This document shows positions 3,901 to 9,820 of a stretch of DNA of 64,000 nucleotides, one piece after another; within the stretch, counting starts at the first letter, position 1, and every line of letters begins with the position of its first letter. The DNA is taken from positions 9,553,001 through 9,617,000 of the forward strand of contig CM034126.1 in assembly GCA_019914995.1 (NCBI GenBank). The letters are read 5' to 3'. The stretch is from Acanthochlamys bracteata. Lineage: Eukaryota > Streptophyta > Magnoliopsida > Pandanales > Velloziaceae. The notes under the pieces are model-generated. The model saw nothing but the letters and a program-made list of their open reading frames with translations, was not told where the DNA came from and searched no databases. The position numbers and the translations under genes were made by a program.

Positions 3901-6900
3901 GTTCTGCATTTCACTTTCACCCATTTCCTCCAACACATCATAGACTTTTTTGGACAAGGATTGGTTGTCATCCTTGATTTTGAAAACTTCTACAAGCAGT
4001 GCATCACGAGCTCCCTGTGAAATTGCCAGTTGTTCATGGAGGATTTCCATTTGAACCTTCAGTGCTGCTTCTCTTTGTTTACTGGCCTGTAAATCTTGTC
4101 GCATCTCTTCATGCTCTCCTTGGAGCTCAACACACTTACATTGTAACTGAGAGAGCTCCTTGCTTTTGATTTTATGCTCTCTCTCAAAATCATCTCTTTG
4201 TGCTCTCAAGTCAAAAATATCCAGTGCAAACTGCTGCAGGATGGTAAAACTTACCAATTTCTCAAGAGATAATTGTTGGTTTTCAGCTTGATCATATGAA
4301 GTTGAAACTAACAACCTTGTAACTTCATCCTTCAGAAGCTGCAACAGTAGCAAACCCTTTATTTCATTAGCTGACTCCTGCTCTGTGCTTATGTTGAGTG
4401 CTTTCAGCAACGAAGAAATCCCTCCCATGAGTGTCTCATTATGCTCTGTCAACAAAGTGATAGTTTTCTTCTGTGCATAATTTTCCTTGTTTAGTTCCCA
4501 AATTAGGTAGTCAGCAGACCTTGAAGCATCTCTGTGTTTTTGGCATGCACTAGAAACACTTATGATCATCTCATTCATATCAAAAATAAACTCCCGAAAG
4601 AGAAAGGCCTCATTCTGAGTATAGAAAAGCAGCTCTTGTTCCATATCCAATTTCTGCTCCCTTACACGATGTTCTTCCTCCAAGAGCTTCATCTTGCAAT
4701 GTAGAGTGGCGAGCTCACATTTGGTCGACTCAGAAAAACTTTTATGCTTATCTTTTTCTGCTCTCAAGCAATTCCTTGACTCCATAAGTTGATAAACTTT
4801 TAGTATTTCTGCGCATTCTAGATTGATATATTTTTCTGCTAGCTTTGAGAATTCATTCTCCATTTCTTCTAAATTATCACATAATTCGCGTACCTGAGAC
4901 AGATTGAGTTTAGGTCACACTTAAAACAACGAAAAAGATTTTCATGAGTAGTGTCCTGACGACCTAAAACAACATGCATGCTGCATACCTGAAGAGAATA
5001 AAGACACAAATCATTTACCTGAGAGATCAGGGCATTCTTTTGAGTTGAAAATGAACTTTTCTCTTAGACCTTCAGCTTCAGTAGTTGCTTCAAGCAGAGA
5101 CTTCTCTAAGAAGGCGTTTTTCTCCGATAGACTCTTTACATTTAGAGTGGCCGTCTCCGCCTGAATCACAATGTAAACTTCCACAATAAGCATCTGGTGT
5201 AGCATACAACACCAAAAGCTAAAACTTTCAAGTTTTTCTAAGATATAGTGGTTCGGTTATTGGGCAGAGAATGACCTCTAAAGCAAGAATTTTCTTTTCA
5301 GCAACTAGATCAGACTTTTCATTAGAAAGCTTCTGGCACAGATCTTCGAGGCCTCTCAACTTCTGTGTCAGATTCTCAAGTTCTGCGGATGAATCAAAGA
5401 AGGACTTCTCAAAAAGAGCATTCCTCTCTGAAAGCTCCTCCACATTCTTCGCAGCAGTCTCTACCTACACAGCACAACAACATTTCAAGACTTGATTGTG
5501 TACATAGGCTAACAGTTTTACTACTCATGCCTAATCATGCCACAAAGTTCATTTTCAAATTTGTATGAGTGACTGGAGTGGCTTCCTCAATAAACCAGAG
5601 GCAAAAGTTCCGTTTTTTCAACAAGAAGATTGGAGTTTTCATTATAGAGAAAATTAAAGTAGCCTTCTAGATTTCTCAATCTTCTGCTATAATTTCAAGT
5701 GCCCTACTGCCATGCATCTGGCATTGTGTCATGGAAACACTTGTGTCAATATTGCCAGTAGTAGCCCCAATCTGAGAGATAATTGGAGCTGTTTCTCAAA
5801 TTAAAGCATACAAGGATGCTTCATTTGGAGAATTCTAGCTCTATATACAATATCTTTTCAACAAATTACAATCCAACAGGTGACAGCATTTTTTTACTAC
5901 AGGATCTTGTCACATATTTACTTAACTATGTTAAATTTGCCAAAGTACGTACCTCTAGCCAAATTTTCAGTAAAATTCTTACTGCATAACATCCAGCCAC
6001 AATGCTTCCGTGACTTATAAGCTTCCGTAAGAGGGTATGCAAGTGTTATAATTTGCAATTAACATATTGGATGCTTGAATCCAAGCATCATATACTTAGT
6101 GTTGTATATGTTACAGAGAAACTGCAAAAAAGTGAAGGACATGGAGCTTGAATCTGTGCATAGTGTCAAGATTCCTAAGTAAAACAACCAAGCATGACAA
6201 CCAAAAAAGTTTTAGCTTGGTTAAAACTTTTATATTCTGCATACAGCTATGTATCTTTTGGACAGCACATATGGAGATTAGAAATATTAACCTGAAGAAG
6301 AAAATTCTTCTGTTTAGCCAGAATATTATATTTTTCCTCATACAGAGAATGATAGAGTTTCTCCAAATCTTTGAACCTTAATTCCTGAGTTTTGACTTCT
6401 GTTTCCTTGTCACTAAGGGATGTTTCTAACAATGTCTTATTCTCTGAAAGTTTCATTATCTCCAAAGTGAAAGAATTCACTTGTAGGAAAATATGTCTTG
6501 TCAAGTCACTCCAGATCAAAGTCAAGTGTTATTTGAAAAGAGAAGCTAGAGCACACATTTACCTGAGACAAAAGTTCATTCCTCTCAGAAAGAAGCTGGG
6601 ACCTTTCAACATTAAAAGACTCTTGCGAACTTTTCAATTTCTCTATCAGTACATCACTTTCAGTATTTACTTTGGACAGGGAACCGACAAGGAATGTATT
6701 TGACTCAGAAAGGTTCATGTCCTCGCAATTAGTTTGTAACTGACCGGTTAGCACTTTCTGTTCAGAAATTTGGAAGGAGAGTTGTCTGTTTAGGGAATCA
6801 TTGGATTCTTGTAGAATTAATAACTTCTTTGTAAATTCATCAAGTTCAAGATTTGCATCTGAAAGAGAATTTTCCAGAACTGCATTCTTCTCATACAACT

Positions 6901-9820
6901 TCTCAGCATCTCTCATCTTTTCAAGATATAGCAGCTGTTTCTCTTCTTGCTTCTGGCATGCAACTTTGAGATTTGCATTCTCATCCTGAAATTCGTTAAT
7001 CAACTTCTGCATAGCCTCAAAGTTGAAGTTCATTGACTGCATTTTCTCTTGCATGTCTTTGTGTTTCTGCTCAAGATCTTCCCGGATACTTTTTTCATGC
7101 AAAAGTTCTTGCTGAAAAATCTTCTTCTCCTCAATGTGGAACGTAACTTCCTTTTCAAGTTTCTCTTCTCTATCTTTCAAGAGATTGATTTCCTTTTGAA
7201 AGTTCCCCATCTTTTGTGAAGACACAAGTGCTTGTTCTTTTAAGTTACAGTTTTCTTCTTTACGCTTGTGCATCTCTTCAGCCAAAGACAGATTGCTCAA
7301 TTCAATGAAATTCAATTTTAGAATCCCATTTTGGAAACTTTCACTTAGACTTTCGACCTGCTCATGAGATTCAGTGTGCAGCTTTTCAAAGGTCTTGAGG
7401 GAGAGTACTAGTCTGTTTAACTCCCCTTGTTTCTGGTAAAGTTTGTTCTGTTGTGTTTTGGCTTTTTGATCGAAACTTTTCAACTCTAACTTCAGAGATT
7501 CGTTTGTGTTCTTTAGGACAACACATTGCTCTTCAGAATCCTTTAGCTTCATGACTTCCTTTGTCATCTCATTGTTGAGCCTCTTGAGGTCATGTTGAGT
7601 TCGAAAAACTCAGTTTCCAGGTTTGAAATTCTTTCTAGTGATCGATGATATTGAACAAGAGCTTCTTCCTTCTCCGGCTTTAGTTGCGATACAGTTTCTT
7701 TGAGAACCCCTATTTCAGTTGCAGCTTTATCTGCACGCTCAGATTCCAATGTTTTCTGGCAGTTGAGGCTCTGGATCTCCCTTGAAAAACTAGAAACTTC
7801 TTCTTGAAGATCAGAATTGTGGTGGTGGTTGGTGTTTTTGTGCTCAAGAAATTCTACTTCTTCCTCATGAAAGTTTAGTCCTTTCCTCGCCTTCCAATCA
7901 CCAAACTTCTTACGAGCTTGCCCATCTCCATTTGGAAACATTTCATTCAATTGCTTCAATCCTTTCCTTCGTTGATTTCCATCCGAAAATGTTCCACTCT
8001 TTTTTATATCATTATAAGGAAATGACCCCAAGATTTCCTTGTGCATATCATCACTTTCGCAGAAAGAACGAAGTGGCGAAGGCATTTCAGGTGTATGAGG
8101 CTCCACATCAGAACAAGAAGAAGAAGCAGTAGGAGAATCATCTGACAACATAAATGGAATTTGATTAGGGAAAGCTTCTGCCATTGTTCTATGTGCCTGA
8201 TGAAGCACCCCTGTTGCATGGTCATATCTCTCAGCTAGGGCTCTGTATGCTCGGTAAAATTCTTCCACTAATGCCATAAGCTCTGGGCGTTTCTTGTAAT
8301 ACATCTCTGCTCTCCTTGCAAATGAATCAGCATCTTCTTCTAACAACTTAATCATCGCATTGATCTTTTCATCCATATCTGCTCAAAGTACAAAAAATTG
8401 TCAAATGATTCCAGATAACATGTCTAAAAAGAAGTCCAATAGCATGCAGCATAAGAAAATTTCTTTTTTCCATTTAAGAAAATCTTTTTGGCAGAATTAC
8501 CATGACAACTATAAAATGAATGGTAGAATATACAGAGTGGTTAGGAAAAGGATAGTAGGGTATCATGAGCATCTTAGCAAGTAGCAGAATGCTAAAAAAT
8601 GATCTGTTCTAGTTTTAATCATGTATTTGCCACAACAATCGCAAGTAAACCTATTCAAAAGGGATGTAACAAAATGCTCATTCCTATCTCAACCAGGGTT
8701 GAAGGCTCAATAGAAACAAGAAGCACTTACAATATCCAACTTAACATAACATTAGATAAACAGGTACACTTGCACATATATAGCGGACTCTCAAGCAAAA
8801 AACCTCAGGGAAACTAGAAGAGCATAAGAAAACCCGCTCTATTAACTGCCTGAGTCTAGCACAATTCAGACACAGACAGAAACGTCTTTATCTAACCACA
8901 TGCTAAGCATTCAGTTGAAAGAGGCTCTAATTTACTATGAAAATCACATATATCTCAATAGTAAAATCTATAGCCAATTCATTATTCTAAAAATTCTTCA
9001 TAGAAAGGAACTTCTTGACAGCTTGAATGAAACACATGCTTTTAGTTGAAATAATAAGGAAAAACGGAGGTCCTCAGTGACCTAGTCAAACAATCATGGT
9101 TTTTATCTGCTAACATCAAATGATTCATGTAAGGGCCACCAGCTACCTTAATGTTCTGCATGAAGCATGACTGATGCAAGCATATGCTTTCCACTCTTAT
9201 ACAATTTTCTTAAAAGCGCAAGTGTTTCAGATCGACTCAACAAGTCACGAAAAATATAAGCATTGAAGTAGGTGGTGATAGCATGACGCAATTAAGCTAT
9301 ATAAGAAGCAACAAGAAATAGGAAGAACGAGCAGGAGAAGAATACTTCTTTCAAGAGTATTACAAGCACTCCTACAGATACAGGCCCGGCATCAAATCAT
9401 TTGCTTTAGGTGCTGATAAGAAGATGCAATTAAGCTATATAGGAAGCAACTCCTGATGGAGTAGGAAGGACGAGTGGAAGATGAATGCTTCTTTCATGAG
9501 TGTTACAATTTTACTCCTACAGCATATAGACCAACCACCAAATCAAGTACATGGAAGCAAATGTAGGAATATTTGAGAAGTAGAATATGCAATACAATTC
9601 TACTACAATCTGCAACTTATAATATCCTTGTAAGACCGAGAAATGAGTGCTTGTTTTCTACTATGCCCATTTATCTCATAATGACAATGGAATAGAATTA
9701 GAGGAAAAGGTACATGCCTGTAAGATTTTCTTGAAGCCATTTTGAATTCTTGGGGCTAATGTGGCTGTCCCACCACCAAGAATACATGCGCTTTGATTCA
9801 CTATGCATCAACATTGCCAT
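902..9820 (-). CDS. NET1: NETWORKED1 (NET1/KIP1-like) actin-binding coiled-coil protein
   Basis: NET1 proteins bind F-actin through an N-terminal NAB (KIP1) domain and form long coiled coils at membranes and plasmodesmata. Exons on the minus strand: 9820-9718, 8378-6563, 6480 or 6459-6292, 5464-5276, 5160-5019, 4893-2125, 2010-902. Exon 1 encodes [20 protein letters not shown] and the [13 protein letters not shown] motif; exon 2 continues with [12 protein letters not shown] and [18 protein letters not shown], completing the NAB domain in about 95 residues. The rest is heptad-rich coiled coil, ending in the family's ARRGSEKI block and a basic FCGC-containing tail. Excluding exon 5160-5019, the product would be about 2050 residues; Arabidopsis NET1A is about 1700 from memory. 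Two single-base frame breaks (7604-7608 and 1195-1197) interrupt the reading, and one T at each restores exon phase exactly. Intron 1 starts with GC. Start choice: first ATG, with the family motif directly after it. Whether the locus is functional is uncertain. Confidence 0.93.
1195..1197 (-). other. Frame break in NET1 last exon at a T3 run (minus strand)
   Basis: Upstream the frame reads [14 protein letters not shown]. Downstream the family C-terminal block [19 protein letters not shown] lies in another frame. One extra T gives [19 protein letters not shown] and continues without a stop to 902. The exon then measures 1110 nt, a multiple of three. Confidence 0.8.
5019..6480 (-). repeat. Tandem array of phase-0 coiled-coil exons in NET1
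   Basis: Four related exon units lie in a row: 6480-6292 (189 nt), 5771-5596 (176 nt, decayed), 5464-5276 (189 nt) and 5160-5019 (142 nt). They encode versions of one 63-residue module with the pattern LSE.N..LE.S ... L..L ... EKS.L..EK..L. Unit starts are 304, 307 and 709 nt apart, as expected for duplication of an exon together with its intron. The preceding large exon ends with two more modules of about 60 residues. Intact units begin and end in phase 0, so any complete unit can be gained, lost or skipped without changing the frame. A faint extra exon end, GCTAGAG followed by a GTACGT donor at 5953, may mark one more lost unit in the 709-nt gap. Confidence 0.8.
5596..5771 (-). pseudogene. 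Fossil NET1 coiled-coil exon inside an intron
   Basis: On the minus strand a good acceptor (ATCTCTCAG) at 5773-5772 is followed by 176 nt ending at CTG, then GTTTAT. The last part, in one frame, reads [18 protein letters not shown] then VEKTELLPL. This aligns residue by residue with [18 protein letters not shown] and AEKKILALE of exon 5464-5276. The first part aligns loosely in another frame and includes [12 protein letters not shown] and a net frame change (176 is not a multiple of 3) make it non-coding. It sits 307 nt from the next exon, on the array period. Confidence 0.7.
7604..7608 (-). other. Frame break in NET1 exon 2 at a T5 run (minus strand)
   Basis: The coding reading ..[12 protein letters not shown] runs to a stop at 7564, while the downstream frame carries [20 protein letters not shown] without interruption. 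Reading six T instead of five joins the two frames as [18 protein letters not shown]. With that base added, exons 1 and 2 total 1920 nt, a multiple of three, consistent with the phase-0 donor at 6562. Confidence 0.8.
9284..9545. repeat. Direct duplication in NET1 intron 1
   Basis: Two diverged copies of about 115-120 bp lie at 9284-9399 and 9423-9545. Both contain GCAATTAAGCTATATA, a GGAAG.ACGAG block, a CTTCTTTCA block, ACTCCTACAG and a CATCAAATCA or CACCAAATCA end. Confidence 0.75.
9716..9717 (-). other. Non-canonical GC splice donor of NET1 intron 1
   Basis: The exon ends CTTACAG and the intron begins GCATGT; the acceptor at 8380-8379 is GAGCAG. Joining them gives ENLT-D-MDEK, the conserved NAB sequence, in frame. 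The flanking CAG|GC matches the strong consensus seen at real GC-AG introns. No usable GT lies nearby that keeps the frame. Confidence 0.85.

Follow-up and report, generated by a model that had tools for sequence, protein, structure and literature searches.

A duplicated NET1 gene of Acanthochlamys bracteata with a probably ancestral array of coiled-coil exons and one copy likely decayed to a young pseudogene

Results

A NET1 gene on the minus strand of the window

The DNA analysed here (the window; 64,000 nucleotides of the Acanthochlamys bracteata genome, C1:9553001-9617000) carries on its minus strand a NET1-type gene extending from exon E1 (9820-9718) through exon E4 (2010-905). A profile search located the NAB/KIP1 domain (PF07765) at positions 8221-8382 (E 7.9e-23; 87.9 bits versus a cut-off of 33.9), the N-terminal domain by which the NET family is recognised. 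Near the N-terminus the gene reads RMYSWWW, in agreement with the RXYS preceding WWW that is a feature of the NET1 subfamily (PMC4046492). Membership in NET2 was also considered, but MLQRA, the N-terminal feature of that subfamily (PMC4046492), is not found at the N-terminus of the open frame of the window gene. By these sequence features the window gene is a member of NET1. The genome searched comprises 195.5 Mb in 557 contigs, and paralogues were collected from KIP1 profile searches and from searches with the unit exons described below; besides the window gene, 12 other KIP1 genes scored above the cut-off. When the translations of four exons (E2, unit 3 and E3 of the C2 homeologue, and E3 of the C6 gene) were compared with Pfam, KIP1 was the only family above its cut-off; the matches to Mce4_CUP1, APG6_N, DUF7603, Sec2p and CENP-F_leu_zip fell below their own cut-offs and were rejected.

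The N-terminal exon E1 contains the RMYSWWW motif and positions 1-23 of the KIP1 profile (C1:9562713-9562781). The large exon E2 (8378-6563) encodes the remaining NAB/KIP1 domain followed by coiled coil, and ends in two modules of the 63-residue type discussed below. E3 (4893-2125) is a large coiled-coil exon of 923 codons, open throughout, and the C-terminal exon E4 (2010-905) is directly followed by a stop codon at 904-902. Alignment to the C2 homeologue revealed one base absent from E2, near 7605, and one absent from E4, near 1196, each breaking the frame. The donor of intron 1 is of the GC type (ACAG/GCATGT) in both the C1 and C2 copies (window position 9718; near 9218 in L025) and of the GT type in the C4 and C6 genes; the GC-AG intron 1 has probably been kept since before the C1/C2 duplication.

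Four unit-like stretches between E2 and E3, one of them undamaged

The first-pass annotation of this DNA had proposed four exons here, each encoding one 63-residue module. The four stretches were indeed found on the minus strand, at 6480-6292, 5771-5597, 5464-5276 and 5160-5019 (189, 175, 189 and 142 nt), two of them of exactly 189 nt and with the start spacings of 709, 307 and 304 nt given there. They represent tandem versions of a single 63-residue module and have phase-0 borders; however, unit 3 alone is free of damage. In unit 1 (6480-6292) all 63 codons are open and the donor is GTTAAT, but the unit is preceded by AA instead of AG (TACAA, versus TATAG in C2), which speaks against a working exon. 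Unit 2 (5771-5597) is a relic that carries deletions of 12, 3 and 1 nt relative to C2 and is open in no single frame, so it cannot stand as a working exon either. Unit 3 (5464-5276) is an intact exon of 63 codons with a TGTAG acceptor and a GTCATT donor. The stretch at 5160-5019, taken previously for a single unit, turned out to be a fusion: roughly 33 codons from the start of unit 4, ending at about 5060, are joined to some 30 bases from the end of unit 6, which begin at about 5050. With 142 nt instead of 189, this fusion exon lacks 47 nt; its length is not divisible by three, it begins and ends in different frames, and it is thus out of frame. The window copy has lost the remainder of unit 4 together with most of unit 6, and no unit 5 is present.

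The earlier observation that the module pattern runs on into the upstream large exon was borne out. A profile was made of five units of C2 together with the final E2 module of C4 and that of C6, and contained no E2 module of C1 or C2; it recognised two modules where E2 ends, both in C2 (E 3.5e-15 and 2e-14) and in the window copy (E 3.7e-06 and 8.5e-11). In the window copy, the final module of E2 (about 6564-6750) is four codons shorter than in C2, with gaps of one and three codons, a further in-frame loss adjoining the array.

A genome search with unit 3, in which the best 15 candidates were scored, returned at least 14 matches at E<=1 (a lower bound for that reason), all within four NET1 genes; among those listed, three lay in the window gene, seven in C2, two in C4 and two in C6. 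Protein identity to the C2 counterpart was 69% for unit 1 and 81% for unit 3, and the DNA of window unit 3 also matched units 4 and 5 of C2 (E 4.7e-11 and 5.0e-17, respectively). Among themselves the window units were only weakly alike in DNA: of 200 shuffles, 1 scored as high as the pair U2-U3 and 2 as high as U3-U4, against 13 to 123 for the remaining four pairs. The case for related units therefore rests on the C2 copy.

An intact array of six exons in the C2 homeologue

Collinearity between C1 and C2 extends to either side of the gene, with 21 blocks between window positions 9983-59202 and C2:9141005-9170012 (20 in order and one off the diagonal) and more blocks beyond the 3' end. At the same place in the C2 gene we found six consecutive phase-0 unit exons of 189, 192, 189, 189, 189 and 189 nt, that is, 63, 64, 63, 63, 63 and 63 codons. 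The seven array introns (85, 517, 143, 116, 332, 161 and 145 nt) all have GT...AG ends and all lie in phase 0 at the module border; their donors read, in order, GTAAAT, GTTATT, GTTTAT, GTCTTT, GTACCT, GTCTGT and GTAAAT. E2, E3 and E4 of this copy are also open. The C2 gene model, in which splicing of the array is predicted from borders and conservation, comprises ten exons (E1, E2, six units, E3 and E4). The six open exons, their proper borders, the kept heptads and the open large exons make the case that the C2 array is probably coding, and this intact array is a more interesting object than its decayed version in the window.

Adjacent exons of the C2 array are homologous and share phase and border position, as expected of tandem exon duplication. 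The pairs formed by U3, U4 and U5 were clearly alike in DNA (scores of 71, 103 and 86 versus shuffle maxima of at most 28), and U2-U3, U2-U5 and U3-U6 narrowly exceeded all 200 shuffles; altogether, six of the 15 unit pairs were reached by none of the 200 shuffles and the other nine by 2 to 82, U1 being hardly alike in DNA to U4, U5 or U6. Similar flanking introns, which tandem duplication would also be expected to leave, were not found within C2, where none of the 21 intron pairs stood above shuffles (31 of 200 scored as high as the closest pair), nor within the window copy, where none of 10 pairs was clearly above them (8 of 200 scored as high as the closest pair). Among 30 non-matching C1-C2 intron pairs, no shuffle out of 100 scored as high as C1 intron 4 with C2 intron 3, and 2 of 100 did so for another pair, both about what 30 tests would be expected to yield. 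The comparison of units and introns with each other, suggested along with the four-exon proposal, placed six of the 15 C2 exon pairs above all shuffles and left the introns not detectably related, and intron-intron likeness as proof of exon-plus-intron duplication was set aside, as no clear case was obtained. The missing intron similarity may only reflect age.

A nine-heptad module

In the five 63-residue units of C2, U2 being left out of the count, 56 of 83 hydrophobic residues fall at heptad positions 0 and 3 counted from the exon start, whereas shuffled sequences gave a mean of 30.0 and a maximum of 38, none of 5000 reaching 56. These registers hold 22 of 45 and 34 of 45 hydrophobics, respectively, so that a single heptad register runs from unit to unit, as in a coiled coil. 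The exon start therefore corresponds to position a, and 63 residues correspond to nine heptads; since each unit also consists of whole codons, its gain or loss would be neutral to both the reading frame and the coil register. In the 64-residue U2 of C2 the hydrophobics are spread over registers 0, 1, 3 and 4, that is, over both registers, as would be expected from one extra residue. From helix geometry, a length of about 9.4 nm per unit and of about 56 nm for six units can be predicted.

The C4 and C6 genes carry the module at the end of E2

In the C4 and C6 genes the intron between E2 and E3 (124 bp and 200 bp, respectively) lies at the same module border, in phase 0 (...Q/V), and no unit exon was found in it. 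The last 63 residues of E2 correspond to the module in both genes (E 2.2e-31 in C4 and 3.4e-31 in C6, both being part of the profile), and the next module upstream, which lies outside the profile, was also recognised in each (E 1.1e-14 and 1.1e-15, respectively). No significant module match to the profile was found in any E3, the best in C4 or C6 having E 0.039. A tree of 16 modules did not resolve the order of duplication, since 7 of its 13 inner branches stayed open and U2 and U6 formed long branches.

Lesions of the window copy

Five lesions distinguish the window copy from C2 in the alignment: the missing base in E2, the missing base in E4, the lost acceptor of unit 1, the frameshift in unit 2 and the deletion from unit 4 into unit 6. 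The window gene thus carries disabling lesions that are absent from its homeologue. As a control, the large frames of eight other NET genes, forming four homeologous pairs, were compared by tblastn over open frames of at least 350 residues. Each of them aligned in one frame, with the exception of a 46-residue hit from read-through of C4 past its E2, whereas the window gene showed one break in E2 and one in E4; four of the 12 other KIP1 genes (C8:7543781, C2:4785200, C1:4584884 and C14:6193790) were left out of this control. The KIP1 match at C14:6193790-6193987 is above the cut-off and contains two in-frame TGA codons, and perhaps represents another decayed NET gene.

The window gene is probably a pseudogene because its damaged units are accompanied by two frameshifts in large exons, of a kind seen in none of the eight compared NET genes; most likely it is a young one. 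Assembly errors could still account for the single missing bases of E2 and E4. The window gene might then still work, with the damaged units skipped and a shortened rod containing unit 3 or no unit at all; the phase-0 borders would allow U1, U2 and the fusion exon to be skipped in frame, and both the low dN/dS and the open E3 described below would agree with a functional gene. Three of the five lesions lie in the array, which makes up 1137 of 6813 coding nt (binomial P 0.036), a concentration that would fit such a gene and that at most hints that the array decayed before the rest of the window gene. Against this stand the eight NET genes of the same assembly that show no frame break in their large frames, as well as the fusion exon itself, which keeps AG and GTAAAT borders, so that its expected inclusion breaks the frame. 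A gene that is still working is therefore an improbable explanation of the window copy.

Probable long purifying selection before decay

The dN/dS values of the two NET1 pairs were 0.334 for C1-C2 and 0.294 for C4-C6, with dS values of 0.367 and 0.363, respectively, equal as one duplication event would give. The NET genes compared fall into five pairs (C8:1328320/C11:6800997, C10/C15, C8:2500906/C11:5867845, C4/C6 and C1/C2) with about 72 to 83% protein identity over large frames, which points to a whole-genome duplication, the dS of about 0.36 coming from two of these pairs only.

In E3, 457 of 2739 aligned bases differ between the window copy and C2, yet the 923 codons contain no stop, and the only two gaps relative to C2 are both of whole codons. 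Were half of these differences neutral changes of the window copy, it should contain 9.6 stops, and 0.1% of 1000 simulated sequences were stop-free; for a quarter the values were 5.0 stops and 0.4%, and for a tenth 2.1 stops and 11.8%. With the C4-C6 dN/dS as baseline, the neutral share of the C1 branch would be about 11%, rising to 22% with a baseline of 0.25 and to 34% with one of 0.2. A branch codon model of four genes, whose outgroup pair is saturated and too distant to discriminate C1 from C2, did not separate a C1 dN/dS of 0.56 (lnL -17265.67) from one of 1.0 (-17266.39) or one equal to that of C2 (-17266.01).

Within the array, the C1-C2 dN/dS of units 1 and 3 and the front of unit 4 was 0.474 on 158 codons; unit 1 alone gave 0.75 on 33 differences, with no third-position excess. 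DNA identity between the copies was 82.5% for unit 1, 87.8% for unit 3 and 78.1% for the front of unit 4. Exon-over-intron conservation is weak evidence of coding use, because the intron identities (75.8 to 83.8%) overlap those of the unit exons.

A short protein limited to the NAB domain could also survive in the window copy, as no break interrupts the frame in E1 or in E2 before about 7605; such a protein would be encoded by some 34 codons from E1 and 258 from E2, followed by a short tail. The part of E2 before the frameshift, however, is no better conserved than the rest (dN/dS 0.457, versus 0.326 in E3), and we regard the survival of such a product as highly improbable.

Discussion

Altogether, the data make it probable that a NET1 gene with an ancestral exon array was duplicated, and that the window copy decayed to a young pseudogene after a long period of purifying selection. 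Before the C1/C2 split, a phase-0 exon array would have occupied the intron that separates the large coiled-coil exons E2 and E3. Both copies show units 1 to 4 and 6; unit 5 is found in C2 alone, and its ancestral presence is assumed. The array most likely originated by tandem duplication of a module exon resembling the end of E2. The simplest account would be stepwise exon duplication in which U3 to U5 arose last, long enough ago for intron likeness to vanish. The exon-plus-intron duplication originally proposed for this locus is in agreement with the relatedness of U3, U4 and U5 in C2 and with the phase-0 position of all seven C2 introns at the module border, but the absence of any C2 intron pair alike does not bear it out.

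The same arrangement might have arisen if introns had been inserted at each module border of one large repeat-bearing exon, with no exon duplication at all. An intronless module junction does exist: the last two E2 modules of C4 and C6 meet at CACAG/GTGGAG, itself a CAG/G site. The missing mutual similarity of the C2 array introns would follow from such insertions, and the three-exon NET1A genes reported from tomato and chickpea also agree with them. This scenario, on the other hand, would require introns to have been inserted independently about six times within a single gene lineage, each time in the same phase and at the same position of the module, and C4 and C6 show no module match beyond E2. 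We therefore consider intron insertion unlikely, and favour tandem duplication of a module exon.

For most of the period since the duplication, purifying selection would have acted on the window copy, which would then have decayed through the loss of the unit 1 acceptor, the unit 2 frameshift, an out-of-register deletion from U4 into U6 and the loss of one base each from E2 and E4. It had been suggested that the phase-0 borders let units come and go without harm. Loss is indeed under way in the window copy, but the one deletion that can be read, from U4 into U6, breaks inside exons and leaves 142 nt, and the gene that carries it has two further frameshifts in large exons, which does not support an unharmed loss of units here. 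The window copy illustrates that phase-0 borders protect only if the breakpoints fall in introns.

The unit exons might alternatively be cassettes that vary the length of the rod between tissues instead of constitutive exons. All units are in phase 0 and consist of whole codons, five of the six contain nine heptads, and the seven donors vary in sequence, features that would suit alternative use; constitutive use, however, accounts equally well for the data, and no sign of alternative use was seen. Cassettes are thus a rather doubtful, if conceivable, reading of the array.

An exon that is whole in both frame and heptads offers a simple rule for changing rod length stepwise without loss of register, and the two NET1 pairs of this genome allow array-bearing rods to be compared with array-free ones in a natural setting. 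The rod of the C2 protein would presumably be some 56 nm longer here than that of C4 or C6. As a speculation to which we give a limited chance, the length of the NET1 rod could be tuned by exon copy number (none in C4 and C6, six in C2) and possibly by splicing too, with the nine-heptad phase-0 exon as an interchangeable module; rod length would in turn determine how far a linker between actin and membrane reaches, and units would have been shed from the window copy before the gene died.

The window and C2 genes resemble the NET1A-like genes described in other plants. Tomato SD1, a NET1A-like protein of 1860 residues with a KIP1 domain, and chickpea CaNET1A, also NET1A-like, are given three exons each in their published descriptions, in contrast to the ten exons of the C2 gene model. 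For the wheat NET1A-like gene NETWORKED 1A (TraesCS5B02G380700), a published description names an exon 6, which means at least six exons; these may or may not correspond to the unit array. Section 4 of PMC4046492 describes no exon structure for NET1 genes. The earlier statement that NET1 genes have very few, long exons thus agrees with tomato and chickpea but not with wheat, and a many-exon NET1 is not unique to the A. bracteata genome. No exon array in NET1 was found in the titles and abstract openings of the top literature matches to loosely chosen terms, which is weak evidence of absence. The tandem exon arrays of animal Dscam and muscle myosin heavy chain genes are likewise runs of related adjacent exons; those exons are described as mutually exclusive, whereas nothing suggests exclusion for the NET1 units. 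As a further difference from the Dscam and myosin arrays, each NET1 unit exon corresponds to a whole number of heptads in the rod.
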